Below, one piece after another: positions 2 through 43,441 of a stretch of DNA of 64,000 bases; within the stretch, counting starts at the first letter, position 1; each line of letters begins with the position of its first letter. The translations under genes were made by a program, and so were the position numbers. Under the pieces are notes generated by a model that saw only the letters and a list, made by a program, of their open reading frames with translations, did not search any database and was not told the DNA's origin. The DNA is from a virus: positions 62,001-126,000 of the IMG/VR virus record IMGVR_UViG_3300027908_000020, one strand, 5' to 3'.

Positions 2-157
2 ATGGGTGCAGGCATGGGCCCCGGTGGCCCCGGCGGACTCCCACCTTTGCCAGGCCTTGGACCCCCAGGCGGAGGAATTGGAGCCCCGACATCGCCACCA
101 TCGCCCGGCGGGCCCCCTGCTGGTTCTGCACCGCCCGCGCCAGCCCCACCAGCTTAA
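2..157 (+). CDS. C-terminal tail of an upstream gene (partial, Gly/Pro-rich)
   Basis: An open frame enters from the left edge and stops at TAA 155-157. About 51 residues are visible, almost all Gly, Pro, Ala and Ser, ending in a Pro/Ala run. The stretch is GC-rich, unlike the AT-rich DNA that follows, because of the Gly/Pro codons. It looks like a disordered tail of a larger virion protein; by position this could be a portal or other head protein, but that is a guess because the folded part lies outside the window. Other frames here are also open because the DNA is GC-rich; this one was chosen for its coherent low-complexity composition and its stop just before the next gene. Confidence 0.5.
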   Translation: MGAGMGPGGPGGLPPLPGLGPPGGGIGAPTSPPSPGGPPAGSAPPAPAPPA

Positions 158-196
158 TAAAAGTCGAGTTGATTGTTTCTACAATCATATTCAAAT

Positions 197-763
197 ATGA
201 AATCCTGCAAATTTTGTAATGTTAAATTAACAGAGGCAAATAGCTGCCCATCAGACTGGATTAATTCATATAATATATGCAAATTTTGTAGAAATTTAAA
301 TTCTAAACGGCGTGAAGCTAAAATTAGAAATAATAAAGAAGTATTAAACTTAATTATTTCTGAAAATCATTGTTGCATTGAGTGTAATCACATTTTAACA
401 AAAGAAAATTGGGCAATTAATAATATTGCTCGTCACCGGTATTTATGCAATAGTTGTAAAAATTTAGAAAGTAAAAAACAAAGAGAATTATTTAAAATTG
501 AAATAATTAGTGAATATGGTGGTAGATGCGCCTGTTGTGGCGAAACAGAATCTATATTTTTAAATATAGATCACATAGATAATAATGGTTCATCTCATAG
601 AAAAGAATTATCTAAAAAAACTGGTCTTAAGATGACTGGTTCAAATTTCTATCGCTGGCTCAAAAAGCAGGGCTATCCAAAAGATAATTATCAAATTCTT
701 TGCTTTAACTGCAATTTTGCCAAGCATGTACTAGGCAAATGTCCACATCAACAAAACATTTAA
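197..763 (+). CDS. HNH homing endonuclease, free-standing, zinc-finger-rich
   Basis: The 188-residue product starts at ATG 197; a TTG at 173 in the same frame is less likely. Several CxxC pairs (CKFC, CKFC, CCIEC, CNSC) precede the HNH core, which reads CACCGE, then NIDHIDNNG, then LCFNCNFAKH. This is the zinc-ribbon HNH fold of phage endonucleases: the His of IDH acts as base and the flanking Cys pairs bind structural zinc. It should nick or cut a recognition site in an allele lacking the insertion and drive its own spread. The gene lies between the GC-rich upstream gene and the virion operon at 823. No good Shine-Dalgarno (SD) sequence precedes the ATG. Confidence 0.85.
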   Translation: MKSCKFCNVKLTEANSCPSDWINSYNICKFCRNLNSKRREAKIRNNKEVLNLIISENHCCIECNHILTKENWAINNIARHRYLCNSCKNLESKKQRELFKIEIISEYGGRCACCGETESIFLNIDHIDNNGSSHRKELSKKTGLKMTGSNFYRWLKKQGYPKDNYQILCFNCNFAKHVLGKCPHQQNI

Positions 764-5216: not shown

Positions 5217-6007
5217 TACGTAGGTTCAGACAAGTCAACGATAATTTATTTAGGGGCAGCGGTCCCTCTATTGAAGACGTTATTTTCTTAAATAAGAAAG
5301 TTGGTATCAATAAAATTGTTAGCCTCGATGAAGCTGCTGGCCAACATATTGATCGTGCTACCAAATTGCTTGGAATGAAGCATATTATGTCTCCTATAGA
5401 TATAAATAGAAGACATTCTCTTATAGAATTTTTAAAACGAGATTTATATAAACTTCTTATGGATGATGGCCCGGTATACGTACACTGCCAAGAAGGCAAA
5501 GATCGCACAGGGCTTGCTATTGCAATGTTTAGATGTTTATATGATGAGTGGACATGCGATGAGGCTCTCAAAGAAGCAGTTAAACTTGGTTTCGGAGTTG
5601 GTGTAAATAAAAAAGTTGTACACCTTTATAAAGATATAATTCAGTCAGCCTGTGAAACTTCTGATAAAAAGCACAAACACATCGATCATAATACCGCAGA
5701 CGATATAGGTTACGCTGATATCGCAACAAATCAAAGAGATGAACTAATGGGTGGAGCATATACATTAGATTCATTCGAACAACAGTCTTGGTCTCCATGG
5801 GAAGATTATACTGTACGTGAATTTCCATTCGCAAGCGCATACCCAGTTTATTTCCCAGAACAATATGAATCAAGGGTAAGCGAAGTCGATGATGAAGATA
5901 CAATTCCATACAATGGACCAGCAATACCACAATCTGGTACGTGGGACACATCAACAGATGGTATTATGGGAGCTGGTCCATCCTTAATAGGTAGTGGATT
6001 TATTTAA
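5213..6007 (+). CDS. Protein-tyrosine/dual-specificity phosphatase
   Basis: The 264-residue product contains VYVHCQEGKDRTGLA, the CX5R phosphatase loop, with Cys92 as nucleophile and Arg98 binding phosphate. The preceding IVSLDE strand and the helix after the loop fit a compact dual-specificity (or phosphoinositide-type) phosphatase domain of about 150 residues. The C-terminal ~110 residues are acidic and Pro/Tyr/Trp-rich, probably disordered, and could tether it to other proteins. It is the last gene of an operon with ATGA overlaps starting at 823. The target (host phosphoprotein, lipid or virion protein) cannot be read from sequence. A convergent GIY-YIG gene overlaps its last 8 bases. Confidence 0.85.
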   Translation: MIRRFRQVNDNLFRGSGPSIEDVIFLNKKVGINKIVSLDEAAGQHIDRATKLLGMKHIMSPIDINRRHSLIEFLKRDLYKLLMDDGPVYVHCQEGKDRTGLAIAMFRCLYDEWTCDEALKEAVKLGFGVGVNKKVVHLYKDIIQSACETSDKKHKHIDHNTADDIGYADIATNQRDELMGGAYTLDSFEQQSWSPWEDYTVREFPFASAYPVYFPEQYESRVSEVDDEDTIPYNGPAIPQSGTWDTSTDGIMGAGPSLIGSGFI

Positions 6008-6599
6008 CCCAAGCTTTACCAGATATTATTTCATAGAATAGAGTATCACTTATATTATATTTTGTAAATATTTCTTTTGCTTTACCAAATTTTTCTTTTC
6101 TTGTTTTATATTGACTATATTCTTTTCTTATTTTATCTGCTATTTCTTGTGTAATTATATGGCGTGCGGATAAATCACCGGTCATTCCATATTGATGATT
6201 TTTCTCTCCATACATATGGCTTTCTTCTCCAAGAATTCCTTTATTCCATCCCGGTTTACCTTTACGATATTCAGATAATTTTTTTCTGGATTCTGGCGTA
6301 TGTTTTGAGCCATTTCTACCGCCTTCTCGTAGGTTATATCCATTTTTTCTGTTCGTTGTGTTATTTAATATAATGAATTGTTTTTCAAAAAAATCAGCGT
6401 CTTCTTGTGTTTCACATTCTTTGATTATCTCAAATAAAAAATTCTCTACACCATATTTATTTATACTGTCGTATAATGGATGATTTATTTTTCTTCTTGC
6501 GTTCTTCTTATGTCGGTGCCATCGTTCTTTGATATTTATAGATTGTCCTATATAAATTTTATTATCTAGTAAGTTTTTAATCTGATATATGAAATACAT
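6000..6599 (-). CDS. GIY-YIG homing endonuclease (Seg-like)
   Basis: The 199-residue product starts with FIYQIKN and NKIYIGQS, the two halves of the GIY-YIG motif, followed by catalytic-type Arg in KERWHRH and NLREGG further on. The C-terminal half has a NUMOD3-like repeat (SEYRKGKPGWNKG) used for DNA contact in this family. It is encoded against the virion genes and its stop codon overlaps the end of the phosphatase gene. A CAGGG sequence upstream of the ATG can act as SD. It sits as an independent insertion between the phosphatase operon and the next virion genes. Confidence 0.9.
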   Translation of the reverse strand: MYFIYQIKNLLDNKIYIGQSINIKERWHRHKKNARRKINHPLYDSINKYGVENFLFEIIKECETQEDADFFEKQFIILNNTTNRKNGYNLREGGRNGSKHTPESRKKLSEYRKGKPGWNKGILGEESHMYGEKNHQYGMTGDLSARHIITQEIADKIRKEYSQYKTRKEKFGKAKEIFTKYNISDTLFYEIISGKAWVK

Positions 6600-12371: not shown

Positions 12372-13289
12372 ATGTTCAATAAAAAAGATGCTTCATTTGA
12401 AATAGCGGAGAGTATGGAGAGAGCGCTTGTAACTAATGCTGTTGATACCCAAACAAAAGGTTTGAGCAAGCTAGCGCAAGCAATGGAGCACCTTAATGCT
12501 GCCGCTGAAATTTTCGACAACGCTGGTCTTCGCAAACACGCAGAAGCTGCAACCCAATTGCTTGAATCATTAGCTGCTAAAAAAGGCAAAAAGGGAAAGA
12601 AAAGCAAGCCACCAGTAAAATCAAAGAAGAGCAAGAAACAGCCAGTAAAATCAAAACGTAATTCAAAAGAAAAGGATTCGGCCACCGAAGGGTTAACGAG
12701 CGACAAAATGCTTGACAACCTAGAGCACAAGGGCTGGGTATTTAATGCTGATGATGGCGCCGAAGATGAAAGCTATGCAGAAGATGACAATTTTGTCAAT
12801 CATGGTGATGATTGCATGTGCTCATCATGCATGGATTCAGATGATATGAATTATCTTCGTCATGGCGATGATTGTATGTGTAGTATGTGTATGGATGCAG
12901 ATGATTCAAGTTATCGTCCACACCATCACGGAAACGGCTGTATGTGCATGGATTGCATGGATGCAGACAACGGTGATGTAAATGATATGAAGCTTGGTAT
13001 AACTGATCGTGGCCCCGGGCACGAAAGCCCAGAATACTGGCATCACATGGCTAGAAAACATACCGAACGTAATGAGTTCAGAAAAGCAGAAGAAGCAATG
13101 AAGCGTGCCCTCGAATCAGAAAGATTTGGCAAGTATGACGCTGGTGATGATTCTGCATTTGGTGATGATTTCAATTTTGATTTTGATACATCAAAAGATT
13201 CCGGATATCATGTTCACCGTAATCCAGAAAAAGGGTATCATTTAGAAGCTGATGAAGCAGATTTATTCCCTTCACATAGACGATATTAA
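12372..13289 (+). CDS. Unknown protein with three CxCxxC metal-binding-like repeats
   Basis: ATG 12372 follows AAGGA. The N-terminal ~70 residues are helical with KLAQAMEHLNAAAEIFDNAG, like the helix module of the 11423 protein. A Lys/Ser-rich stretch follows (75-110). Three near-identical units start at His144, His164 and His186: HGDDCMCSSCMDSDD, HGDDCMCSMCMDADD, HGNGCMCMDCMDADN, each with CxCxxC and acidic flanks. The C-terminal part has GHESPEYWHHMARKHTERN and an acidic Asp/Phe segment. The units look like small soft-metal sites (Zn, Fe or Cu), which is inference. I know no named family. It lies between the protease/scaffold gene and the capsid genes, so a virion role is likely. Confidence 0.75.
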   Translation: MFNKKDASFEIAESMERALVTNAVDTQTKGLSKLAQAMEHLNAAAEIFDNAGLRKHAEAATQLLESLAAKKGKKGKKSKPPVKSKKSKKQPVKSKRNSKEKDSATEGLTSDKMLDNLEHKGWVFNADDGAEDESYAEDDNFVNHGDDCMCSSCMDSDDMNYLRHGDDCMCSMCMDADDSSYRPHHHGNGCMCMDCMDADNGDVNDMKLGITDRGPGHESPEYWHHMARKHTERNEFRKAEEAMKRALESERFGKYDAGDDSAFGDDFNFDFDTSKDSGYHVHRNPEKGYHLEADEADLFPSHRRY

Positions 13290-13446
13290 TTTCTTCTTCT
13301 TCTTCTTAAGAAAGCCAAATATATAGCGGCATTATATACTAGTTTGTGCATAATTAAATTCATTTGCACTTTCTCATTGCTGCTTTCCTTTGTTATATAA
13401 GTCAATGATGAACTGCATTTCTTATAGTTCATAAGCAGGAGCGCAT

Positions 13447-13506
13447 ATGTTTTGTTTACAATTGAAGAGGCATTGGGAGAAAAACTCAATGAAATCACAT
13501 CCTTAG
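13447..13506 (+). CDS. 19-codon ORF, possible leader of the 13511 gene
   Basis: AGGAG at 13437-13441 is the best SD in this gap and leads to ATG 13447, which opens only 19 codons to TAG 13504-13506. The GTG used by the next gene lies 4 bases after that stop, in the +1 frame. The ORF could be a coupling leader, the true N-terminus joined by a +1 shift at CCT TAG G, or chance. The rest of the gap (13290-13436) holds only a TTC repeat and AT-rich sequence. Confidence 0.25.
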   Translation: MFCLQLKRHWEKNSMKSHP

Positions 13507-13510
13507 GATC

Positions 13511-14188
13511 GTGCAGGCGGGCAATAGCCTTCCATTTTCGTGGGCGGTTGATCCAAGCGCTGAATTTCAGCCGGGGCAAATTGCTCAACTCACAGTTATT
13601 GGTAACCAGGTGCTAGCAACTGTTTCTAACGGAGCTGCACCAATTGGTATAATTGACGATATTAAAACAAGAGCATTTACATCAACATCATGGGATGAAA
13701 CACTCGTTGTTCCTGCCGCTGGTGTTCTAAATAATGGTCAACTTGTTACTCCAATAGATATAAAAGTAGAACTCAATAATCCAAATGTACTACCTGCAAG
13801 TTTCGTGTCTATACCAGTAGATGTGCAGCTCATCCCAAGAAATGGCGTCGTGATCTTTCCAGCTGGTACCCCGCTTAACTACGATTTACTTGGCACTGGT
13901 TCACCAAATGCTATTAAAACGAATGTAAGATATACTTATCAAATTCCAAATATCATTGGAGATGATAGTACTCTAGGTAATAATAGAGTTACGGTTTGGT
14001 TTCAGAGAATGATTTTCCAGACAGATCAATTCGAAACAAACCAAATTTATCCATTAAATGCTAACCTTTTCGTTAGTGAAATTGGTATGCTTACAACTCG
14101 TCAACCTGCGCCGAATTACCCGGCAGTTGCATTAGTTAGTGCGCCACCGTCGCCGATACTCGGGTTTATCGAGTGCGTGTGGTTATAG
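13511..14188 (+). CDS. Virion protein, capsid-associated type (decoration-like)
   Basis: The product is 225 residues, beta-rich, with VQAGNSLPFSWAVDPSAEF at the N-terminus and APIGIIDDIKTRAFT further on. The frame is open only from 13493, so GTG 13511 is the only ordinary start, and its AGGA is just two bases away. A small beta protein placed before the capsid gene suggests a head decoration or head-completion protein, but I cannot assign a family with certainty. See the leader ORF at 13447 for the start problem. A GIY-YIG gene follows directly. Confidence 0.65.
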   Translation: MQAGNSLPFSWAVDPSAEFQPGQIAQLTVIGNQVLATVSNGAAPIGIIDDIKTRAFTSTSWDETLVVPAAGVLNNGQLVTPIDIKVELNNPNVLPASFVSIPVDVQLIPRNGVVIFPAGTPLNYDLLGTGSPNAIKTNVRYTYQIPNIIGDDSTLGNNRVTVWFQRMIFQTDQFETNQIYPLNANLFVSEIGMLTTRQPAPNYPAVALVSAPPSPILGFIECVWL

Positions 14189-14215
14189 GCCGAACATTTT
14201 GATTTTACTTGATAT

Positions 14216-14237
14216 ATAGCTATTCAGAGGTAGCTAT
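14216..14237 (+). promoter_or_regulatory. Hairpin enclosing SD and start codon of the GIY-YIG gene
   Basis: ATAGCTA (14216-14222) pairs with TAGCTAT (14231-14237), 7 bp. The 8-base loop TTCAGAGG contains the AGAGG SD, and the ATG (14236-14238) begins inside the 3' arm. This would block initiation on transcripts that contain the whole hairpin. Confidence 0.55.
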
Positions 14238-15066
14238 GCATTTTATATACAAAATAACAGATACGATCAACAATAAAGTTTATATTGGACAAACAATTCA
14301 TGTAGAGCGAAGATGGCAAGCGCATCGTTCATATGCAAAAAATCCTGAAAGAACAGGGCAATATATTCATCGTGCTATGGCAACATATGGTATTGATAAC
14401 TTTAACTATGAAGTAATTGCCTGCGCAAAAATTCAATTGGATGCCGATGAAGCAGAAGCTCAAATAATTAATCAATTTAATAGTCAAAGTAAAGAATTTG
14501 GATACAATATCAAACCTGGTGGTGGTACAAAAGGTCACTCCGAAGAAACTAGACAAAAACTTCGTGAAGCTACATTAAAGCAAATAGCAACCAAAGGCCC
14601 GCCAGGACTAGGCTCAAAACGAACCGATGAACAAAAAGCTAAATTAAGTGCTAGCCTCAAAGCTTTAGATAAAGAAAAGATATATACTCCTGAAGTTCGT
14701 AAACGAATGTCTGACGCCCACATTGGCAAGTCACAGCCAAAAGAATTGGTTGAAAAACGCGCCGCGACAATAAGAACAAATAAAGGCGAAATGATATGTG
14801 GCGTGACTGGTTGTGGTGAGATAAAAAGACGATCTTCTACTACTATTGATGGTATTAGATATTGTGATAAACATGCATTGCGCCTCAAAACAACTGGAAC
14901 TCTAGAACTTCGTCCCAGAAAAGCCCACAATAAAAAACAATTCACACCTGAAGAAATTAACGAGATTTTATCTGACAAACGGGCCGCTGCTGTTATTGGT
15001 AAAGATTTTGGTGTAAGCGAGCCTGTTATTTTACGAATTAGAAAAGAAGCTAAAAGGGCCATCTAA
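14236..15066 (+). CDS. GIY-YIG homing endonuclease with zinc finger and C-terminal HTH
   Basis: The start is ATG 14236, with AGAGG at 14226-14230. The 276-residue product has FIYKITD and NKVYIGQT (GIY-YIG), Arg in VERRWQAHR, and NIKPGGGTKGHSEETR, then NUMOD3-like repeats (EVRKRMSDAHIGKSQ). Near residues 185-215 a CGVTGCGE...YCDKH Cys/His cluster looks like a zinc finger. The C-terminus (EEINEILSDKRAAAVIGKDFGVSE) fits a helix-turn-helix for site recognition. It is inserted between two virion genes on their strand, and its initiation region is folded in a hairpin. Confidence 0.9.
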   Translation: MHFIYKITDTINNKVYIGQTIHVERRWQAHRSYAKNPERTGQYIHRAMATYGIDNFNYEVIACAKIQLDADEAEAQIINQFNSQSKEFGYNIKPGGGTKGHSEETRQKLREATLKQIATKGPPGLGSKRTDEQKAKLSASLKALDKEKIYTPEVRKRMSDAHIGKSQPKELVEKRAATIRTNKGEMICGVTGCGEIKRRSSTTIDGIRYCDKHALRLKTTGTLELRPRKAHNKKQFTPEEINEILSDKRAAAVIGKDFGVSEPVILRIRKEAKRAI

Positions 15067-15089
15067 TACTATTAATTCTGTATAGTATT
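15065..15089. terminator. Weak hairpin after the GIY-YIG gene
   Basis: AATACTAT (15065-15072) pairs with ATAGTATT (15082-15089) around a 9-base loop, overlapping the stop of the endonuclease gene. No T-run follows, so it may be an mRNA 3' stabiliser or chance in AT-rich DNA. Confidence 0.25.
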
Positions 15090-15114
15090 GTAGAAATACC
15101 ATCTGGAGAGCGTA

Positions 15115-16230
15115 ATGGTTTACAATATAAAAGATATTAAGCATTTAGAAACAATGAATGATCTTGAGGACACGCAAACTCAAGAAATTGATGTTAAAAG
15201 TTTATTAAACTTGAATGCATCAGGGGACTCAAGTCTCGACGGAAATATTTTAACATTGTGCAGCGGTTTAAGAACAAAAGGTTTTGATAAGCTTGCTCGT
15301 AGTCTAGAAGATAAGTTTGTTGCGTTCAAACAAGCTGAGGTTCACCTTTATAAAGTTCACGAGGAAGATGGCGAGGATTTAATCGAACGTGCTCATCCAG
15401 AAGGCGACACCAACATGGCCGATGGTGAGCTTGGCGATGTTGAAACCATTGTAAGCAGACATAACAAAATTGTTGATGTTGTTCGAAAAAAGCCCACAGG
15501 AAAATTGGCCTCATACTTAGAACAATGTAAAGTAGCTCTTGGTCAAGACTTAACAAATGTTCAAGCTAAATTAAAAGACAGCATTCTAAAATCATTAGGT
15601 TCAGTTAAAAGAAAGCTCAAATCTATAGATGATGTTGTAACTAAGCAGGGCGATCTGTGGTTTGTTGGTACCGGAAAAACATATCAGCCAATGATCTCTT
15701 CTTGCTTTTCATTAATTGATAGTCTTACTTCTGGTGGAGCTGATACTCCTAATCTAAATATTCCCGACATCGAAAAATTAATGCAAATGGTTGCAGGACT
15801 AACTCCGGTACTTAAAGGATACTCTGGAGTTACGCCATTTGGTGGGTTAGATGAAAAAATTCAGAAACTTGTAATGCCAATGATTGATCAGGTTAAAGAT
15901 ATTTTGCCAAGTATAAAAAATGCTATAGAGACATATGTTGGAAGAACAATGAAACAAACAGATGCTTTAAAGCCTTTGGATTCTGTTGACGTTCCGGATT
16001 TACCGGTGGAACAACAGAATGAAGTAAAACCAAATCAAGCTGCCCAATTGCTTGCATTGATAAAACAAATTCAAAATGCTGTAGCTTCTTCTAAAAAATT
16101 AACTGATGCACAAAAACAACAGTATAATAAATGGATACAAGATACAACTCAAGAAGTAAATGCCGGGCAAGATTTAGAAGCTCGTAGCAAAGAAATTTCA
16201 TCTGTATTAAGCTCATTACCTAAAGGATAA
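15115..16230 (+). CDS. Unknown virion-operon protein, 371 residues
   Basis: ATG 15115 follows GGAGAG. The protein is helical. Residues about 47-75 carry LRTKGFDKLARSLEDKF, the same helical-hairpin type seen in the 11423 and 12372 proteins. Residues about 85-150 read ERAHPEGDTNMADGELGDVE followed by a helix ending KKPTGKLASYLEQ. No catalytic motif is apparent. It is the first of four closely packed genes (15115-19751) with gaps of 0-2 bases, which probably make one structural or internal-head complex. Confidence 0.7.
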   Translation: MVYNIKDIKHLETMNDLEDTQTQEIDVKSLLNLNASGDSSLDGNILTLCSGLRTKGFDKLARSLEDKFVAFKQAEVHLYKVHEEDGEDLIERAHPEGDTNMADGELGDVETIVSRHNKIVDVVRKKPTGKLASYLEQCKVALGQDLTNVQAKLKDSILKSLGSVKRKLKSIDDVVTKQGDLWFVGTGKTYQPMISSCFSLIDSLTSGGADTPNLNIPDIEKLMQMVAGLTPVLKGYSGVTPFGGLDEKIQKLVMPMIDQVKDILPSIKNAIETYVGRTMKQTDALKPLDSVDVPDLPVEQQNEVKPNQAAQLLALIKQIQNAVASSKKLTDAQKQQYNKWIQDTTQEVNAGQDLEARSKEISSVLSSLPKG

Positions 16231-17250: not shown

Positions 17251-18615
17251 ATGCCAAGACTACCATCTATTTTCGAAAACGAAGATTTTATTAAAGAGCT
17301 TAGTGGTCTTTTCAATAAGACTGCGCAAGCTGCTCCAGCTCAACAGCAATGGTGGGATGCTGCAAATCAAGATGCAAGTACATCTAATGCACAGCTAGCG
17401 CTGGATATGGTTAATAACTTTCCTAGTGATAGACTTACGGCCGGAAGCTCCGTTTCTTTGGCTGGTAGTGTGAAGCCAGAAAATCAACCAGGTGTTTCTG
17501 ATCTATATAGTCTTGATGCCTTTATAAGATATTTAGGTGCGGAAAGCACTGGTGGCGATGCGGGACCAATTCCTGGCGCTGGTACTCCAAAGAACAATTT
17601 CCAATACAATGTACAAGGCGGAGGGCAACTTCCATTAGTTGTGCCAGGCGGTGGTCAGGAACAAAAGATACCAGCAGGATATGTTTTGTATAACAGCCAG
17701 GTTGGCCCATTCTTAGTTCACAAAGAAGGATTAATTGATGTGCTTAAGACAATGGCAAATAGCGCAGCAGCAACCGATAATCTTTATCTCAAAGAATTAA
17801 TTCATAAACTTATAGACGAAGTTACATCTCTCAAAGAGCTTGATATCAAGCCTGATACCTTCAAAGAGAATAAAGCTAAGCTAGATCCTTCCGCTCAGAC
17901 TCCAGCAGCTCCTGCTGTTCCAGGTGCAGCACAACCAGCTCCCGGACAAGTCGGTAGCCCTAGTATGAATGCCGTTCAAATATCAGATAAAAGTCAAGGC
18001 CAAGGTGTTGCCCAGGGTCCAGGTCAACAAGCTACTGGCGATGCATCACTAAGTGATATCGGAATACCAAGTCTTTATAATTGGCTTCCTTTCTGGGGTA
18101 ATGGAAGAGTTAACTTCACTGATATAGATTATTTTGTTAGCTTATTTAACAAGGCAGCGTTAGAACATGCTGCCCAAATTGGGCTAGACTTTAGACTTAT
18201 AAACAATATAGCCCCCTTTGAACAAGAGATTAGAAATCTAGAATCACAATTCGACGCAGCTACAGCTAACGCACCTTTACTTAGATCTTCTCGCGGTATT
18301 CAATACGCAATCGATAGTAGCCCCATTGAAGCTGTGCATGATTTCAAAGGACAATTTGGAACGCCAGGAAGTGTGCAGCAATCATATTCTCTGCAAAATC
18401 AAATCAGCGTAGCACAGATAATGCAGCGTACCGTGCAAATAACAAGATATCTTCTACAAATGTTATTGTCTACAGCATTTGCTACACGAATTCCTGATTT
18501 CAAAGAGATGATACAGCAGCAAATAGATGAAGCAAATAAATTGCAACTTGATTTGGGCCAGGCTGTTCAACTTATTGAAAACCAAGTACAGGCAATAAAA
18601 CCAGCAGGACGTTAA
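17251..18615 (+). CDS. Unknown virion-operon protein, 454 residues
   Basis: The start is ATG 17251, one base after the previous TAA. The N-terminus reads FNKTAQAAPAQQQWWDAANQ, then a Gly/Pro-rich stretch, a folded region with AGYVLYNSQVGPFLVHKEG and an amphipathic helix (NLYLKELIHKLIDEVTSLKE), a Pro/Gly/Gln linker (about 215-265), and a helical C-terminus. The KTA...WW element recalls the 823 protein. No known family. Its stop overlaps the next ATG (TAATG). Confidence 0.7.
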   Translation: MPRLPSIFENEDFIKELSGLFNKTAQAAPAQQQWWDAANQDASTSNAQLALDMVNNFPSDRLTAGSSVSLAGSVKPENQPGVSDLYSLDAFIRYLGAESTGGDAGPIPGAGTPKNNFQYNVQGGGQLPLVVPGGGQEQKIPAGYVLYNSQVGPFLVHKEGLIDVLKTMANSAAATDNLYLKELIHKLIDEVTSLKELDIKPDTFKENKAKLDPSAQTPAAPAVPGAAQPAPGQVGSPSMNAVQISDKSQGQGVAQGPGQQATGDASLSDIGIPSLYNWLPFWGNGRVNFTDIDYFVSLFNKAALEHAAQIGLDFRLINNIAPFEQEIRNLESQFDAATANAPLLRSSRGIQYAIDSSPIEAVHDFKGQFGTPGSVQQSYSLQNQISVAQIMQRTVQITRYLLQMLLSTAFATRIPDFKEMIQQQIDEANKLQLDLGQAVQLIENQVQAIKPAGR

Positions 18616-19786: not shown

Positions 19787-20515
19787 ATGGCTCACAGTAA
19801 TATTTTTGATGAATACGCAAAGATTGCATCGGAAAAAGGATTAATAAAACTTTCCGAAGAATCCTCAGAACTTAAGAAATATAAGAATGATACTTATCCA
19901 AGAGTAGGTTCAGATGATATTTCCACAATAGAAGCGCTCTATGGTGTAAAACCAGATAGCCCAATTAAATATAAGCATAATATAATGGAGGCCGCGCACC
20001 CAAAGGCCGTTGTTATTGCACCATCCTACGATAAACTAAACGGACTAGTAGAGAACGAAATAGAAAGACAGAACATCGACTTAAATATCGCTACAAGGTC
20101 TACAACAGGAAAGAACGTAACTCAGGGTCCAAAATATGCCCGCAAAGATTTAATGCTTCAACTAGTTAGAATTGCTAATGATATGGACAATCAGAATGTT
20201 GATGACCTTCGCGCTCTTGCTGATGACTGTATTGAAGTTCTAACATCAAAAAAAGCCAACTGGCCTAGCTGGTTAAATGAAAATAGCATAGAAGATGCTA
20301 TGTCAAATATTGAACAAAGTATTGGTTTAACAACTGATCGAACGCCAGAAGTCGTGCCAGCAAGTAATGAAAAGTCATTTGGTGAACATCCATATGTTAA
20401 TGAAGAACCAGCATTCAATAACATGGATTTATCAGAAATAGCAAAATCTTTAGGGCGTGGCGCATCCGATCAGGATAAGGAATTTTTCCAATTTTTGATG
20501 CAACAAACGGATTAA
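19787..20515 (+). CDS. Unknown 242-residue protein
   Basis: ATG 19787 follows AGGGTG. The product is charged and helical, with SKKANWPSWLNENSIEDAMS near residue 155 and an acidic C-terminus. No motif identifies it. It has its own 35-base leader, and its end overlaps the convergent HNH gene by 4 bases. By context it is another virion or assembly protein. Confidence 0.7.
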   Translation: MAHSNIFDEYAKIASEKGLIKLSEESSELKKYKNDTYPRVGSDDISTIEALYGVKPDSPIKYKHNIMEAAHPKAVVIAPSYDKLNGLVENEIERQNIDLNIATRSTTGKNVTQGPKYARKDLMLQLVRIANDMDNQNVDDLRALADDCIEVLTSKKANWPSWLNENSIEDAMSNIEQSIGLTTDRTPEVVPASNEKSFGEHPYVNEEPAFNNMDLSEIAKSLGRGASDQDKEFFQFLMQQTD

Positions 20516-21444
20516 TTTTTTTGAATGGCCGGGCAAGTAAAATATACTCGTTTTGCCCAAGAAATAAATTCTGCCATTGAACGATTAGCCTTTGACCAAT
20601 TACAAAATTTGCAACAAGATACGATATTATCTAGTGTATGTGGTTTTGTTTGATCCAGCCTATCAATTCCATTACGGAGGATGATATCGCCATTTTTGCA
20701 TTTTGTTTGGTTTGAATTACTTATACCACAATAAAAACAGGGTTGTGTTAGGATAAAAGAAAATAGTGCAAAATCGATATCTATATCTTTGTAAGCTTGT
20801 TTTAATGTGCCCTTGATTCTCTTAAATTGCGGGAGATCATGATTGTTTGCCAGATAGAGTTTTTCATAGTTAGGAATTTCACTATGATTTTTGCTGTTTA
20901 TATTAACTACCATAGCATAAAACTGCTCGGTGCCCATATTTCTCTTTGAGAAATTACATTCTTTACAGGATGGTACGCAGTTATCTGAATTGTGAGGCAA
21001 ATCATTATTGACCCTATCGAGACCATTGTAGATGAACATTTTTCTTACTTCATCATAGTTTGTTCTATTACTCCATTTATTAGAAGGTTTTCTCCCACAG
21101 TAAAAACAATTCAATTGGGAAAGCTTATAGAATTCATCAAATGTCAATGTACCGTCATTATATTTTGCTAAATATGCTGTTCTTGCGGCAGCTACAATTG
21201 GTTCGTATTTTCTTCTAGAAAATCCAACGTTAGTTAAATGTTGAGATGATTTTTCAGACTTTAAGCATCCACAAGATTTTGTATTACCATTTTTTAATTT
21301 ACACCCTCTATCAACAATAGTTATTTCACCACAATTACAAAGACATTTCCAGCTTGGCCGTTTTTGTTTTTTGTTTTGTGATGGTTGCTCTTCTACAACT
21401 AAGAGTCGACCAAACCGTTTTCCCACAAGGTTTTCTTTTCTCAT
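20512..21444 (-). CDS. HNH homing endonuclease with two tandem HNH modules
   Basis: The 310-residue product opens with MRKENLVGKRFGRLLVVEE and a zinc ribbon (WKCLCNCGE...KSCGCL). Two HNH-type modules follow. The first is NCFYCGRKPS, NGLDRVNND, CVPSCKECNFSKR. The second is PCFYCGISNS, NGIDRLDQTK, VSCCKFCNWSKA. Each keeps two Cys pairs, an Asp and an Asn/His-like loop. Related phage HNH proteins carry one module; the paralogue at 22361 has one. It is encoded opposite to the virion genes and its end overlaps the 19787 gene. The second module may be catalytic or only DNA-binding. Confidence 0.85.
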   Translation of the reverse strand: MRKENLVGKRFGRLLVVEEQPSQNKKQKRPSWKCLCNCGEITIVDRGCKLKNGNTKSCGCLKSEKSSQHLTNVGFSRRKYEPIVAAARTAYLAKYNDGTLTFDEFYKLSQLNCFYCGRKPSNKWSNRTNYDEVRKMFIYNGLDRVNNDLPHNSDNCVPSCKECNFSKRNMGTEQFYAMVVNINSKNHSEIPNYEKLYLANNHDLPQFKRIKGTLKQAYKDIDIDFALFSFILTQPCFYCGISNSNQTKCKNGDIILRNGIDRLDQTKPHTLDNIVSCCKFCNWSKANRSMAEFISWAKRVYFTCPAIQKN

Positions 21445-22311: not shown

Positions 22312-22375
22312 AAATCATATAGTTACAAACTATATGATTTAAGATCAAGGATGGCTGTCTTCAGCCATCCTTTTT
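22312..22375 (+). terminator. Two hairpins: 13-bp stem, then strong Rho-independent terminator
   Basis: AAATCATATAGTT (22312-22324) pairs with 22328-22340 around a 3-base loop. Then AAGGATGGCTG (22347-22357) pairs with CAGCCATCCTT (22362-22372), 11 bp, followed by T's at 22371-22375. The second hairpin terminates the 21602 transcript. On the minus strand the last codons and stop of the HNH gene lie within it. Confidence 0.85.
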
Positions 22376-22951
22376 CTTTTGTAAATTTGTATATAAATTT
22401 TCTACCCATCTCGTAAATTCCTCAACCGTTCTTTCTCGTTTCGAATAGTTACACCATTTACAACAAGCCACAACATTAGAATAATTATGTAGTTCAGAAT
22501 TATTTATTCTGTCTAATCCATTGAATATAAATTCACAGTTAGTATTATAGAATTCTGAACTTCTTTTTCCTCGGCCAGCTCTTTTATTAGATGGTTGATT
22601 TCCACAATAAAAACAATTTTGTTGAGACAGTTCATAAAATTGTTCGAAAGTTAAATCCCCATCCAAATAGTCTTCTCTATAAACTATTCTTGCTGTTGCC
22701 ATTCTAGGATCGTATTTCCTGCTATCAAAATTTCTTTTCGATGCTAACTCAGAAAGCACCTCGCTCTTCAAGCATCCACATGAAGTTGTATTACCCGATT
22801 TCAGATCGCAGCCCCTATGAACAATAATTGTATTGCCGCACTCACACTTGCATTTCCATTGTGGACGTTTTGGTTTTCCTGGTTTTGGCTGTACCTCTTC
22901 CACAACCAGTAAGCGCCCAAATTTGCGTCCGACTAAGTTTTCTTTTCTCAT
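22361..22951 (-). CDS. HNH homing endonuclease, single module
   Basis: The start is ATG at 22951 (MRKENLVGRKFGRLLVVEE); an in-frame TTG further out overlaps a -35 box and is rejected. The 196-residue product has the zinc ribbon WKCKCECGN...TSCGCL and one HNH module: NCFYCGNQPS, NGLDRINNS, VACCKWCNYSKR. It is a paralogue of the 20512 gene. The stop TGA lies inside the terminator of the 21602 gene, so the C-terminal Lys-Asp-Gly is encoded by a terminator arm. Confidence 0.9.
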   Translation of the reverse strand: MRKENLVGRKFGRLLVVEEVQPKPGKPKRPQWKCKCECGNTIIVHRGCDLKSGNTTSCGCLKSEVLSELASKRNFDSRKYDPRMATARIVYREDYLDGDLTFEQFYELSQQNCFYCGNQPSNKRAGRGKRSSEFYNTNCEFIFNGLDRINNSELHNYSNVVACCKWCNYSKRERTVEEFTRWVENLYTNLQKKKDG

Positions 22952-24209: not shown

Positions 24210-24256
24210 TTGACTTTTTCAATTTCTGATATATACTGTATTGAGACCCACTCAAT
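24210..24256 (+). promoter_or_regulatory. Sigma70-type promoter overlapping a leader hairpin
   Basis: TTGACT (24210-24215), a 16-base spacer and TATACT (24232-24237) precede the LAGLIDADG gene. ATTGAG (24240-24245) pairs with CTCAAT (24251-24256) directly before the SD CGGAG (24257-24261). The predicted transcription start (about 24244) lies in the 5' arm, so only transcripts from upstream would form the hairpin. Confidence 0.65.
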
Positions 24257-24270
24257 CGGAGAACCAGACT

Positions 24271-25257
24271 ATGAGAAAACTATTAGACAGCGAAACAAAG
24301 AACAAAATTATTCAGCTTTATCAATCTGGCCAAGGATCAGATACGGTAGCAAAACAATTTAATATTCATCCCAATACAGTGTTAAAACTTCTTAAGAAGG
24401 CAGGACTATCCGCCCGCCCAATACAGAGGAAAATCTCGCCAAGCGACGAACAAGTTATTTCTAAACTTTATCAAGATGGACTTTCCATGAAAGCTATTGG
24501 AAAGCAATTTTCTATTGATCCTGTTTCCATCTTTAATTACTTAAAGAAAAATAATATCCGGTCTCGAACCGCAGAAGAATGCCACAGAAAGTATGCCATT
24601 AATGAAAATTACTTTGATAGCATAGATACACAAGAAAAGGCTTATATTTTAGGATTTTTATATGCTGATGGTGGCAATGTTCAAAAATCCAACTTTGTTG
24701 GAATTCATCTTAATGCAAAAGATATAGATATTCTGTATAAAATATCAGAAAGAATATATGTGGAAAATTCGCGGGACAGGGTGAATACATATGAAAGAAT
24801 AAGAAAAGATAAAAAATTTATTCACTGTAATTTGAATATAAATTCAAAATATGTCTGTAATCAATTAGCAAAATTAGGTTGTGGCCCCAAAAAGAGTTTA
24901 ACATTAACATTCCCAGAATGGCTTATCGATCCAGAACTGCAAAGACATTTTATTAGAGGATATTACGATGGTGATGGAGGATTGCATCTCCCAAGAAAGA
25001 AGGGCAGATCTCCATTAGTACGAATAATATCTACTACACAGTTTTCCGCCATAACTGCTAATATTCTAATAAAAACATTAGGTGTAGGAATATACAGCGA
25101 ACATAAGAAGGATCTAACAAGAATATGTGTAAGCGGCGGAAAACAAGCTAAAACCTTCCTGGGCTGGCTATATAAAGATGCAACCATCTATCTCGATAGA
25201 AAATATAAGCTATACCAGGAGTTCCTGGCAAAGTATAACAATTTATCCATAAAATAG
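24271..25257 (+). CDS. LAGLIDADG homing endonuclease with two N-terminal HTH motifs
   Basis: The start is ATG 24271, 9 bases after CGGAG. The 328-residue product has two helix-turn-helix units (SDTVAKQFNIHPNTVLKLL, SMKAIGKQFSIDPVSIFNYL). LAGLIDADG motifs follow at 126-134 (ILGFLYADG) and 227-236 (IRGYYDGDGG), each with its acidic residue. The C-terminal FLGWLYKDATIYLDRKYKL is shared with the endonucleases at 30396 and 32697. It should make a double-strand cut at a long site. It follows the capsid terminator and has its own promoter, so it is an independent transcription unit. Confidence 0.9.
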   Translation: MRKLLDSETKNKIIQLYQSGQGSDTVAKQFNIHPNTVLKLLKKAGLSARPIQRKISPSDEQVISKLYQDGLSMKAIGKQFSIDPVSIFNYLKKNNIRSRTAEECHRKYAINENYFDSIDTQEKAYILGFLYADGGNVQKSNFVGIHLNAKDIDILYKISERIYVENSRDRVNTYERIRKDKKFIHCNLNINSKYVCNQLAKLGCGPKKSLTLTFPEWLIDPELQRHFIRGYYDGDGGLHLPRKKGRSPLVRIISTTQFSAITANILIKTLGVGIYSEHKKDLTRICVSGGKQAKTFLGWLYKDATIYLDRKYKLYQEFLAKYNNLSIK

Positions 25258-26224: not shown

Positions 26225-26962
26225 ATGGCTAGCAAATATTTTATTTATTTGATTACCAATTTAACTTATAATAAAGTTTATGTTGGTAAAAGCGTTAGCC
26301 CAAGCACTAGATGGAGTGATCACAAAAAAATAGCTATGGGCGGTAAGAAAAAGTATAGAACTGATTTTGCTATCATACATGCAGCTATTAAAAAATATGG
26401 TATTGATAATTTCAAATTTAATATAATTGATGAATTAGATGATGAAATAGAATCTTATTTAGCAGAAACTAAATGGATTTTATTATTGTGTTCTAATTTG
26501 AAAAAATATGGATATAATTGTAATCTTGGTGGTGAGGGAGGAGTGCAGCCCACAGAACGATCAAGACAGAAAATGAGTATTGCCCAAAATAAACCAGAGC
26601 TGCTAAAACTTCATTCCGATCAAATGAAACAAAGGCATAAGGATAATCCAGGGTTCTTATCAGGTATTCATAAAGGAAATAAATATACTAAAGGAAGAAA
26701 ATTAACGCAAAAAGAAAAAGATAATCTTTCTAAAAAATTTTCGGGACGAGTGTTTTCAGAAGAACATAAACAAAAAATTCAACAAGCTTTACCAAAAGGA
26801 GAAAATGTTAAAAGCTCCAAATTGACTGAAAAACAAGTTATTGAAATTCGCAAAAAATATGTGCCGTGTAAGTATGGATGCGTGAAACTTGGAAGAGAAT
26901 ATGGTGTAGATGCTGAAACAATTCGTAGAATTGTTCTTAGAAAAATTTGGAGACATATATGA
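26225..26962 (+). CDS. GIY-YIG homing endonuclease
   Basis: The 245-residue product carries FIYLITNLTYNKVYVGKS (GIY and YVG forms), Arg in STRWSDHK, the conserved Glu helix (ETKWILLL), and NLGGEGG. NUMOD-type repeats follow (NLSKKFSGRVFSEEHKQKI), then a C-terminal HTH (VIEIRKKYVPCKYGCVKLGR). AAGG precedes ATG 26225. The stop overlaps the ATG of the patatin gene (ATGA), so the endonuclease is coupled to a non-mobile neighbour. Confidence 0.9.
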   Translation: MASKYFIYLITNLTYNKVYVGKSVSPSTRWSDHKKIAMGGKKKYRTDFAIIHAAIKKYGIDNFKFNIIDELDDEIESYLAETKWILLLCSNLKKYGYNCNLGGEGGVQPTERSRQKMSIAQNKPELLKLHSDQMKQRHKDNPGFLSGIHKGNKYTKGRKLTQKEKDNLSKKFSGRVFSEEHKQKIQQALPKGENVKSSKLTEKQVIEIRKKYVPCKYGCVKLGREYGVDAETIRRIVLRKIWRHI

Positions 26963-30395: not shown

Positions 30396-31637
30396 TTATT
30401 TCTTGTCTGTCCACTTGCCCAAATGATCTTGCTCCGCTGTATCAGCGTTATCCTTAGCAAAATCATCATCAGACAAGTTTAGCTCTTCGTATTTAATATT
30501 CTCAACTTCTACAGAAGAGCGTTGGTGGGTTGGAAATATTGCGTCTTCTTGGAAAGGAATTACATCCTTTTTCTTTACGCCGGGTGGAACTTGTCTTACT
30601 ACAACTTTATCACTTTTAGCAAAAAGAGACCCGGATGTAGCTGATTTGATTAGTTGTTCTTCAGTATAATAATGATGTCTTTTGTCTAAAAGATTCATAG
30701 ACGTCATAGGCTGGATGTGCAGTGCTAAGTCGCCCAAACTAACGACTCTTTTGGATATATTGGTAATCCAAAAGAAATTCTCTGGTCGACGCTGAAAATT
30801 TTTCATCTCATAGTAATGTTTTTTTATTAGCAAGTGTTTTATTTTATCGTGTTTTCTATCAAGGTAGATAGATGCATTTTTGTATAAAAATTCAACAATA
30901 TTTTTAACCTGTCTGTTTCCATTAAAATTTATTACAAAAGTAGAATCATAAGTTTTAACCCTGTTAGTATTAATATTAATATCACATTCTCGTTCTAATA
31001 TTGCATTATAGTTGTGTAAAAATTCATAAGTGCCGCGTACACTGAAATGCGCTTGCTGTATTGTGCGGTCTTTTTGAAGTTTAATTAATCTTAAACAACC
31101 ATCACCATCAAGGTACCCACGCATAAAATGATTGGATAGGGGATGATTTAATATAAATTTTGGAAAAGTGTAGAGAAATGTTTTATTATTAATTACATTG
31201 AATTTTTCAAGATCATTACATACAGTTTTAGAAACTAATGATATTTGACAGCACTTGTATCCTTCTTTACTAGTGTATATTTTAATTGGATTATTACTAT
31301 CGAATAATTTTTTTATCTTTTCTAAATGATCAATATCTTTTAATGATATGGAAATTTTTAATATTTTACTATATTTTCTATTTTGTATAGCTCCATCTGC
31401 CGCAATAAATCCAGCAAGATAAAATGATTCTTCACTATCAGATTGAAAAATTTTTTCATTGAATGAATATATTCCAGTATAATGTTTTGAATAATTAATT
31501 TGATATAATTTCATATATTTGTATATAGAATCTACGGATACATTTAACGCGTCCGACATTTTCTGCATGGATCCGTATATTTTATAGTTATATTCCAGCA
31601 TTTCTCTTGAGAAGAGATTTGATATATTTTGCACCAT
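30396..31637 (-). CDS. LAGLIDADG endonuclease fused in frame to a phage protein
   Basis: Residues 1-277 are a homing endonuclease: an N-terminal HTH (MSDALNVSVDSIYKYMKLY), LAGLIDADG motifs at 74-82 (LAGFIAADG) and 171-180 (FMRGYLDGDG), and the shared end FLYKNASIYLDRKHDKIKHL. From Met278 a different protein begins: ENFFWITNISKRVVSLGDLA, MNLLDKRHHYYTEEQL, SGSLFAKSDKVVVRQVPPG, then an acidic tail, 136 residues in all. Met278 (ATG at 30806) could start it alone, but there is no stop between the parts and only a weak SD. The C-terminal part looks like a small phage structural or accessory protein that the endonuclease gene has invaded at its 5' end. Confidence 0.85.
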   Translation of the reverse strand: MVQNISNLFSREMLEYNYKIYGSMQKMSDALNVSVDSIYKYMKLYQINYSKHYTGIYSFNEKIFQSDSEESFYLAGFIAADGAIQNRKYSKILKISISLKDIDHLEKIKKLFDSNNPIKIYTSKEGYKCCQISLVSKTVCNDLEKFNVINNKTFLYTFPKFILNHPLSNHFMRGYLDGDGCLRLIKLQKDRTIQQAHFSVRGTYEFLHNYNAILERECDININTNRVKTYDSTFVINFNGNRQVKNIVEFLYKNASIYLDRKHDKIKHLLIKKHYYEMKNFQRRPENFFWITNISKRVVSLGDLALHIQPMTSMNLLDKRHHYYTEEQLIKSATSGSLFAKSDKVVVRQVPPGVKKKDVIPFQEDAIFPTHQRSSVEVENIKYEELNLSDDDFAKDNADTAEQDHLGKWTDKK

Positions 31638-43100: not shown

Positions 43101-43441
43101 TGCAAAAATTTGCTGTACAAAGAATTCGCAAGACCGATCCAATTTATCAAGTTAGAACCTTCAGAGATACAAGTTATTTCCCAACCCAGCTTACAACAAC
43201 CGTTGGTTCAGCGCCAGGCGCCTTTGCTCCACATATTCATACACTGACGTTAAGTGAGCAAATTACATCGCTAAGTCAGGTAAATCAGATTACTGGAATT
43301 ACATTAGGTCATGCACATACCATTTTGGCAGGAGTAGTCCAGGAAGAAGGTCTTGGTCATACTCATCAAATTGTGCTTCCAGATCCGAGCATCTATCCAA
43401 CTAATTTATATCCAACCTCAGAAGAAGGTAGCTCACCATAA
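40130..43441 (+). CDS. Tail/baseplate virion protein split by an intein
   Basis: The start is TTG 40130, 9 bases after GGGAG; no in-frame ATG precedes it. Before splicing the product is 1103 residues. The N-extein (1-476) has an FnIII-like segment (NLKWATAYP, LIPGQMYHFGVRAAEY), a small beta domain, and at 183-295 a domain also found in the tail sheath. The C-extein resumes CYGTGFIVGWQQYFNPRRSD and ends with a His-rich tail. Excision of residues 477-898 joins CRY to CYGTGF, restoring a Cys-x2-Cys site that follows CKC. The mature protein would be 681 residues. A tail or baseplate role is inferred from domains and neighbours. Confidence 0.8.
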   Translation: MVYYLNVFIDGLNIASSNGDGYSVNLKWATAYPTTPTNKILYNIWMSNVPPGLNSAIAPVFPEDFFLPYPTFASTGTQTNVDIVDLIPGQMYHFGVRAAEYDPANFDPSVLIPAYNNLSTYPQSLLATDISATATTIPLISTESFPDYGVVRIGGELVYYDSVDYVNNLLFVPGGTNGGSTIVDQGGGNYYTASSSNIGSGTINNLTLVNTSAPTETWTIKCDQVLYNNLNQQIPGTARFSVIGSSSGSQIGGQEYFWVANGVVTSNTILSFGITETALFRPGDYFIVKVLAIPAGMGGRGYNNTIPTMHDIDGYDGYVYWDPNVIYWPIVTEELNTRVYECWNRFDIHNIPFTITDGYHQKTVDLLTTNLSVSDADNVGFPAYDFAGYHRTDPVMLLSGACVGSYIGGYMFCADGYSGVGQQLRGLNIQDVNNQRQEVLLSTTGEPALFVSRQWTGITCKCMLPYNEYPENRCRYCFPPETLIRTETGLRPINTIKIGDKVLSSDGLYYPVNDVYINEYDGYLKSITTTTTSKPILATPEHPFVKLGGAHQDSLMRKCGPKCNLFIKRGDGISNRHDVRQTKNKRWQARIGVNYKKIVLGTFDTKELANQAIDNYRDKHCAQGHELEWHAASHIEKGDWLVPKWNKNIVNVDKISIPQEFLKNTKLGSKRNGTTEFDIDNDFLWIAGLYIAEGCAGQRQIYFALHKNEVSFQEKVVSFFTRYGFNSSIRKTSDNGVVVAISGSSLPGWFRSIFGTKCYNKHIPEIFMSLPNDKVWSLINGINDGDGTKAIDENEITQTSEILALQLVELLHRCGKQPILRTSQHSKLTPKGNKRKLAYCVNWDLDHQNVNRKGRWKLDKEVLAKVKNTKDVYYKGLVYNLEVGGDHTYVVQNTLVHNCYGTGFIVGWQQYFNPRRSDGRIMVRFDPVVDDLLATDSGLESSMNPTCWTLTVPTLKDRDFLIRFDVGGNEEFRYEILNVTRNKLMFGMEGMQKFAVQRIRKTDPIYQVRTFRDTSYFPTQLTTTVGSAPGAFAPHIHTLTLSEQITSLSQVNQITGITLGHAHTILAGVVQEEGLGHTHQIVLPDPSIYPTNLYPTSEEGSSP
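41558..42823 (+). mobile_element. Intein with AP2-like and LAGLIDADG domains
   Basis: Residues 477-898, 422 in all. Cys1 begins CFPPETLIRTETGLRPINTI (block A), and ATPEHPFVKL is block B with its His. At 572-620 an AP2-like DNA-binding segment reads KRWQARIGVNYKKIVLGTFD then TKELANQAIDNYR. LAGLIDADG motifs follow at about 684-693 (WIAGLYIAEG) and 777-786 (LINGINDGDG). Block F is YNLEVGGDHTYVV, and block G is VHN followed by Cys+1 of the extein. All splicing residues (Cys1, block B His, penultimate His, terminal Asn, Cys+1) are present, so splicing and homing both look intact. Confidence 0.9.

Follow-up and report, generated by a model that had tools for sequence, protein, structure and literature searches.

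A start-codon hairpin at a free-standing phage GIY-YIG endonuclease gene is predicted to occlude translation on read-through RNA

Introduction

Several homing endonuclease genes of phages are translated or kept silent according to the point at which their RNA begins. Such occlusion dependent on the RNA start is described, in the parts of the reports drawn on here, for I-TevI, I-TevII, I-TevIII, segB and Aeh1 mobE (PMC2988022, PMC3014915). I-TevI is the GIY-YIG gene of the T4 td intron; like I-TevII and I-TevIII, it has a ribosome binding site (RBS) that is structured on RNA from upstream promoters, and a promoter immediately upstream of the gene gives an RNA that is too short to fold (PMC2988022). 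As presented in those parts of the account, I-TevI is intron-encoded, its promoter is a T4 late promoter, its read-through RNA is early/middle and its repression was shown experimentally. In T4 segB and Aeh1 mobE, both free-standing homing endonuclease genes, a hairpin sequesters the RBS (PMC2988022, PMC3014915); mobE encodes an HNH enzyme, and both genes reside in T4-like phages with T4-type late promoters. The leader of T4 gene e (lysozyme) works alike, in that the long early RNA folds and blocks translation while late promoters within the 5' strand of the structure give translated RNA, although gene e is the phage's own late gene and involves no mobile element (PMC3014915, in part). The endonuclease gene seg43 of Aeromonas phage 25 also has a stable hairpin at its start region, but this lies just upstream of the RBS, which the passage on seg43 describes as not sequestered (PMC2988022).

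Here we analyse a start-codon hairpin at a GIY-YIG gene of an uncultured phage. Compared with I-TevI, the gene is free-standing, carries another motif and is preceded by a source of read-through RNA that is probably of the same promoter class, and its occlusion is a prediction; compared with segB and mobE, it sits in a phage group for which a search of 50,697 named phage records with the upstream gene gave no match. Leaders of such kind outside T-even phages, or the motif TGATATATA, were found in none of the titles and abstract openings among the literature matches listed, from a search of largely open-access papers.

Results

The window, which is the whole 64,000-nucleotide stretch of DNA analysed, corresponds to bases 62001–126000 of a 150,580-base virus record (IMGVR_UViG_3300027908_000020). 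Matches to tail sheath and tape-measure proteins, a DNA polymerase and a UvsX-like recombinase identify the record as a tailed phage. The gene at 14236–15066 (plus strand) encodes a free-standing GIY-YIG homing endonuclease of 276 aa with NUMOD3. Its GIY-YIG domain matches PF01541 (E 4.2e-10, 40.2 bits versus a cut-off of 22.6), the NUMOD3 part matches PF07460 and the product matches PHROG homing endonuclease families. The 225-aa gene upstream stops at 14188, and the motif TGATATATA begins 22 nt past this stop. The downstream gene, used as a probe for relatives, found none.

A hairpin is present over the start of the endonuclease gene. The plus strand reads, in order, TGATATATA (14210–14218), ATAGCTA (14216–14222), TTCAGAGG (14223–14230), TAGCTAT (14231–14237) and the ATG (14236–14238). 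ATAGCTA and TAGCTAT form a perfect 7-bp inverted repeat, and the pattern ATAGCTA-N8-TAGCTAT has one exact match in the entire window, which is this hairpin. RNA folding lengthens the stem to 10 pairs, 14215–14224 with 14229–14238, around the loop CAGA (14225–14228), at a predicted energy of about −9 kcal/mol. The 5' arm (14215–14224) lies between the hexamer of the motif and the expected RNA start, and the 3' arm (14229–14238) wholly contains the ATG. The Shine-Dalgarno sequence (SD) AGAGG (14226–14230) is half in the loop and half paired, its last two G forming G-U pairs with 14223–14224. An earlier note on this DNA had described the inverted repeat with the SD in its loop and the ATG in its 3' arm; the repeat and the position of the ATG are exactly as described, the SD lies only half in the loop, and the TATATA box (14213–14218) to which the note drew attention is outside the loop, overlapping the base of the 5' arm as part of the fuller motif TGATATATA.

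Taken singly, this hairpin is only modestly unusual and within reach of chance. Its fold has a z of −1.94 against shuffles, 12/200 of which fold equally well or better. Watson-Crick stems of at least 7 pairs spanning SD to ATG arise in 43/3000 plain and 208/3000 dinucleotide-keeping shuffles of the upstream sequence and are found at 4 of the record's 147 gene starts. The single fold is thus suggestive only, and it is the comparison with relatives that makes the hairpin count as more than chance. Its reading as an intrinsic terminator was rejected because the stem has no U-run after it.

Searches of viral contigs and genome contigs, together with a DNA pattern scan, gave a sample of at least 222 distinct GIY-YIG starts. 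Among the matches listed, the motif is present in 28/32 close relatives (score 200 or more), in 7/18 that score 150–200 and in 10/172 that score below 150. One regular expression recovered it in 45 of 222 starts, and 47 leaders were picked from the sample for carrying it. Two leaders with no usable start or leader (L213 and L226) were left out before a set of 26 was formed; identical leaders were merged, and L197 was retained despite its start codon, ATA.

Each leader was scored by the best helix between the 10 nt from motif +7 and the start region (−8 to +45), and own pairing was compared with pairing swapped among leaders. The pairing rule was fixed on the 26 leaders, in which own pairing scores 14.35 versus 12.27 swapped, and was then used unchanged on 21 others, 12 from later fetches and 9 fetched earlier but outside the first set; the printed leaders had been viewed before the test. 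These 21 leaders give 15.19 own versus 11.25 swapped and all 47 give 14.72 versus 11.58, values that 0/20000 permutations reach in either case. Permutations reach the mean of one subgroup (n = 19) in 0/20000 cases and that of the other (n = 17) in 1/20000. With sliding windows, the 5' arm signal falls at motif +6 to +17 (z about 8), and that of the 3' arm falls chiefly on codons 2–8 (z above 7) and more faintly on the start codon (z about 3.4). Controls gave no such difference: 10 nt taken upstream of the motif pair at 9.45 own and 9.50 swapped, and a partner shifted to nt 22–60 of the gene gives 10.46 and 10.25. Likewise, 23 non-GIY genes that share the motif and SD layout give 10.11 own versus 9.74 swapped, with 2421/10000 permutations as high, whereas 30 GIY genes picked as these controls were show 15.93 versus 12.24 (0/10000 permutations).

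To limit shared ancestry, 23 disjoint sister pairs were taken from the protein tree. Among the 21 pairs whose arms differ, own pairing beats swapped pairing in 17, loses in 3 and ties in 1. In a MAFFT alignment of 16 leaders each of the 8 pairs changes on both sides, and 81.3% of cells pair, versus 68.2% when shuffled and 39.8–58.6% when slid; these 16 were chosen among leaders seen to pair, so the alignment serves as illustration and the swap tests decide. Examples of arm pairs are GTATTTCG/CGAAATAC (L034), ATGTTTCG/CGAAACAT (L258), TAGTGTTTTG/CAAAACACTA (L216), TAGCGTATAG/CTATACGCTA (L363) and TATAATGCAT/ATGCATTATA (L259). Pairing over the ATG as in the window recurs, with other letters, in L259, L066, L269 and L184. 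The window's own start region ranks first of 26 as partner for its 5' arm. For L203, L224, L184 and L008 the start regions of many other leaders pair equally well or better, and L042, also among the 47, lacks a helix altogether.

In 35/47 leaders the sense RNA folds better than its antisense. The own best helices contain 40 G-U versus 14 A-C wobbles, and interrupting pairs, counted separately, are G-U in 7 cases versus A-C in 4. Wobble was discarded as proof of the RNA strand, the own-minus-swapped gain being equal with G-U (3.21) and with A-C (3.25). On the folding comparison, the sense strand is favoured.

The predicted cost of opening the SD and ATG, averaged over the 47 leaders, is 8.2 kcal/mol on read-through RNA, 6.3 with the 5' arm shuffled and 3.6 on promoter RNA; the window gives 9.1, 5.2 and 2.0 kcal/mol, respectively. 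Read-through RNA is costlier to open than its shuffled-arm counterpart in 39/47 leaders, and costlier than RNA begun at motif +15 in 47/47, the latter being partly expected of a shorter RNA. By fold and covariation, the RBS or start codon is predicted to be sequestered in a read-through hairpin as in the T-even cases. Occlusion of translation on read-through RNA, which had been proposed from the single hairpin, is in this way well supported as a prediction by covariation in relatives (swap tests, sister pairs and alignment).

The motif belongs to a class that is common before genes of this record. The 8-mers GATATATA and TGATATAT are the two most enriched at −60 to −9 of the 147 called genes, preceding 13 and 12 genes versus 0.6 expected. 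Of the 70 sites of TGATATA or GATATATA in the record, 20 lie 16–60 nt before a called start, and no −35 shared among sites before called starts is visible by eye. Over the record as a whole, the exact nonamer TGATATATA is no rarity (11 sites versus 6 for its backward reading); in the relatives' loci it precedes 5/397 non-endonuclease genes versus 0.6 expected, and four of these five are the upstream capsid-type gene. From the enrichment and its presence in relatives, we infer that TGATATATA is a promoter element of this phage group. With T 14213 taken as −12, RNA from this putative promoter would start near 14225, the first loop base. The SD begins 15–18 nt after the first T of the motif in 38/47 leaders; the exceptions are L269 (14 nt), two leaders with 21–22 nt, four in which none was found, and the short leaders L225 and L071, where a distance of 8–9 nt is too near for the assumed RNA start. 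The suggestion in the earlier note that TATATA could start RNA in the loop gains from its place within an enriched motif that is set alike in 28/32 close relatives (matches listed), with the start itself assigned by spacing.

In scans of 12500–16000, sites for sigma-70 promoters and terminators were no more numerous than in shuffles, and the hairpin had none. The T4-type TATAAATA was rejected as promoter of this phage, only 4/35 of its sites in the record lying within 70 nt of a start; the leader carries TGATATATA in place of this T4-type late promoter. The record has no match to sigma region 2 or to the RNA polymerase family PF00623. The sole sigma region 4 match in the record is a 147-aa protein (L015:7007–7450, record bases 47007–47450) that also matches several generic HTH families and whose own gene is preceded by TGATATATA; by these matches it is a candidate sigma-like factor of the phage.

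The conserved gene upstream of the endonuclease gene (13499–14188, plus strand), from which read-through RNA would come, has a homologous frame from 13499 and a first listed start, GTG, at 13511. A viral contig search found 86 relatives, of which 80, 56–76% identical, were kept; against the 50,697 named phage records this gene gave no match. The model of its protein is beta-rich (mean pLDDT 80, pTM 0.52) and weakly resembles capsid decoration/stabilising proteins. A structure search returned no PDB match with E ≤ 0.001 and three unnamed viral models at or below 0.001. The resemblance provides a lead that the protein is capsid-type and structural. A motif variant, TGTTATATA (13391–13399, plus strand), lies 120 nt before 13511 and is a possible promoter of this gene. 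In relatives, TG[AT]TATAT or GTTATATA occurs within 150 nt before the gene in 40/64 distinct regions, mostly 49–64 nt away, versus 5/64 for the same search on the reverse strand; these regions are related loci and hence not independent. Because the same motif class precedes this structural-looking gene, the read-through RNA is probably of the same class.

The beginning of the upstream gene is itself variable. At 13446–13511 the window has ATC-CTT-AGG where most relatives listed have ATG-CTT-AGA; some relatives begin with ATT/ATC or similar, and another short frame (…EKLNEI…) runs into the gene there. An insertion scar, a changed start or a frameshift is possible. In the relative L246, a LAGLIDADG-looking ORF (positions 3–656, minus strand; AYFLGLLYADG, by eye) is directly upstream of this capsid-type gene and on the opposite strand; the ORF's start is preceded by TGTTATATA and by an arm/start helix of 8 pairs. 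From such sequences, the capsid-type gene may attract mobile endonucleases on both sides.

From 80 loci, 64 distinct regions after the upstream gene were obtained (2 loci were too short and the remainder were duplicates). An endonuclease gene is present in 24, a remnant in 5, and in 35 no such gene was detected by profile. The 24 filled and 35 empty regions indicate that the endonuclease gene inserts sporadically next to a conserved gene, some relatives having empty sites. The motif lies no more than 150 nt past the upstream gene in 22/24 loci with an endonuclease gene, 2/5 with a remnant and 3/35 without. It thus tracks the endonuclease gene across loci, indicating that leader and gene travel together. 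L189, a motif-bearing locus without a detected gene, looks by its position like a remnant leader.

At least seven homing-type genes (GIY-YIG, HNH/EndoVII-like and LAGLIDADG) occur in the 64 kb, at 6000–6599 (−), 14236–15066, 20512–21444 (−), 22361–22951 (−), 24271–25257, 26225–26962 and 30396–31637 (−). HNH_3 (PF13392) has no match in the record, and the HNH-like genes were found through PHROGs. By eye, TGATATA or TGTTATATA stands within about 55 nt upstream of six of the seven, the exception being 6000–6599. Four GIY-YIG genes are found in the record, and the arrangement is clear in only the 14236 gene. For the LAGLIDADG gene at 31601 (−), RNA from the gene's own promoter would include the whole of its 6-bp stem, and the start of the HNH-like gene at 21444 (−) folds weakly. 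In the HNH-like gene at 22951 (−) and GIY-C at 26225 (+) the start codon is, in whole or part, in a longer-range stem: GCCATA, about 45–50 nt upstream, can pair with TATGG at the start, with a promoter-like motif between. This pairing is possibly a longer-range form of the same occlusion. The claim that the 14236 hairpin is one independent case of occlusion at a different endonuclease family found no support as worded, the window's other homing genes showing 6-bp, weak or longer-range stems. At 24227–24271, the LAGLIDADG gene starting at 24271 has TGATATATA followed by an ATTGAG/CTCAAT hairpin just before its SD, which resembles the non-sequestering hairpin of seg43 as sketched in the passage on that gene (PMC2988022).

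Start hairpins also occur at genes of other kinds. A RuvC-like gene (203 aa) has, at L015:3406–3440 (record bases 43406–43440), GATATATA inside the 5' arm of the hairpin ATATATCC/GGATATAT, which holds the SD and ATG; the anatomy thus recurs outside the homing endonuclease genes. T4 gene 49, a resolvase gene, offers a parallel. One locus was found among relatives of the RuvC-like gene, identical in protein and printed leader, so that no covariation is readable there. Among all 147 gene starts, the strongest hairpin over a start codon, with 9 Watson-Crick pairs and no TGATATATA, is that of L013:3698–4534 (−), a gene with a ferritin-like/DNA-binding match. A 124-aa protein (L013:18149–18523, record bases 18149–18523) has a PHROG match to ribosomal protein S21; judging by this match, it might affect SD recognition in infected cells.

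Discussion

Our analysis points to a leader that acts as a switch set by the RNA start point, with read-through RNA occluded and RNA from the gene's own promoter open; we give this reading, which is drawn from sequence, a probability of about 0.7. Read-through RNA from the capsid-type gene would include the 5' arm and fold up the ATG together with part of the SD, blocking ribosome start. RNA from the gene's own TGATATATA promoter would begin near 14225, lack the 5' arm and be translated. The 5' arm fills the gap from the motif to the expected RNA start and would therefore form only in transcripts begun elsewhere. The endonuclease gene would thus rely on its own promoter and be insulated from transcription of the operon that it entered. 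We infer the further elements of this scheme, namely the motif as promoter, the RNA start, translational repression and a dose-limiting purpose.

The same anatomy could instead serve timing, as in T4 I-TevI, with early/middle read-through, a late embedded promoter and a hairpin that delays the endonuclease to late infection. The leader does equal those of I-TevI, segB and mobE in anatomy, as far as they are described in the parts consulted (PMC2988022), and the small sigma region 4-like gene could serve a late promoter class. We nevertheless consider a timing switch, which the earlier note does not expressly claim, unlikely, given the structural look of the upstream gene and the occurrence of the same motif class ahead of it in 40/64 relatives. 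Insulation or dose control is the better guess because the source of read-through seems capsid-type with the same class of motif, and the hairpin probably serves insulation from a same-class promoter and not early/late timing.

Two further explanations were weighed. The window's hairpin could be a chance palindrome in AT-rich sequence even if those of its relatives are functional, as the shuffles (208/3000 dinucleotide-keeping ones with a stem of at least 7, 12/200 in the folding comparison) would allow, and much of the family pairs with codons 2–8 and not, like the window, over the ATG. Its 5' arm, however, occupies the peak of the family signal, its own partner is the best of 26, and four relatives (L259, L066, L269 and L184) likewise pair over the ATG with other letters, making chance an improbable explanation. 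The inverted repeat could also act as DNA, as an operator whose occupation by the endonuclease or some other protein would cover the promoter and repress transcription. I-TevI autorepresses at an operator overlapping its late promoter, by the part of the account drawn on (PMC2988022), and covariation of arms is expected of a DNA palindrome too, with the G-U gain (3.21) not above that for A-C (3.25). Against this, the 3' arm changes freely in sequence and is found at places ranging from ahead of the ATG to codon 8, which is unlike a fixed-spacing site; in 35/47 leaders the sense RNA has a better fold than the antisense; and motif-bearing non-GIY genes lack the pairing signal. An operator therefore seems very improbable to us.

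Returning to a switch set by the RNA start, we tentatively consider, at somewhat less than even odds, that the leader is a portable insulator: a copy of the host phage promoter in which the stretch from hexamer to start doubles as the repressing arm, leaving outside RNA translationally dead. Were this true, the element would be expressed equally wherever it lands, even in a strong late operon, and the partner would be free to shift from the start codon to codons 2–8 while the 5' arm stays in bases missing from promoter RNA.

Our findings extend a principle known from a few T-even cases to uncultured phages, with swap tests, a separate test set and a gene-class control, so that statistical evidence stands in place of single folds. 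They also propose a promoter motif for phages whose capsid-type gene matches none of 50,697 named phage records. Together they suggest that mobile endonucleases have adapted time and again through occlusion dependent on the RNA start, and that this device may, beyond timing, insulate them from the operon that has been entered.
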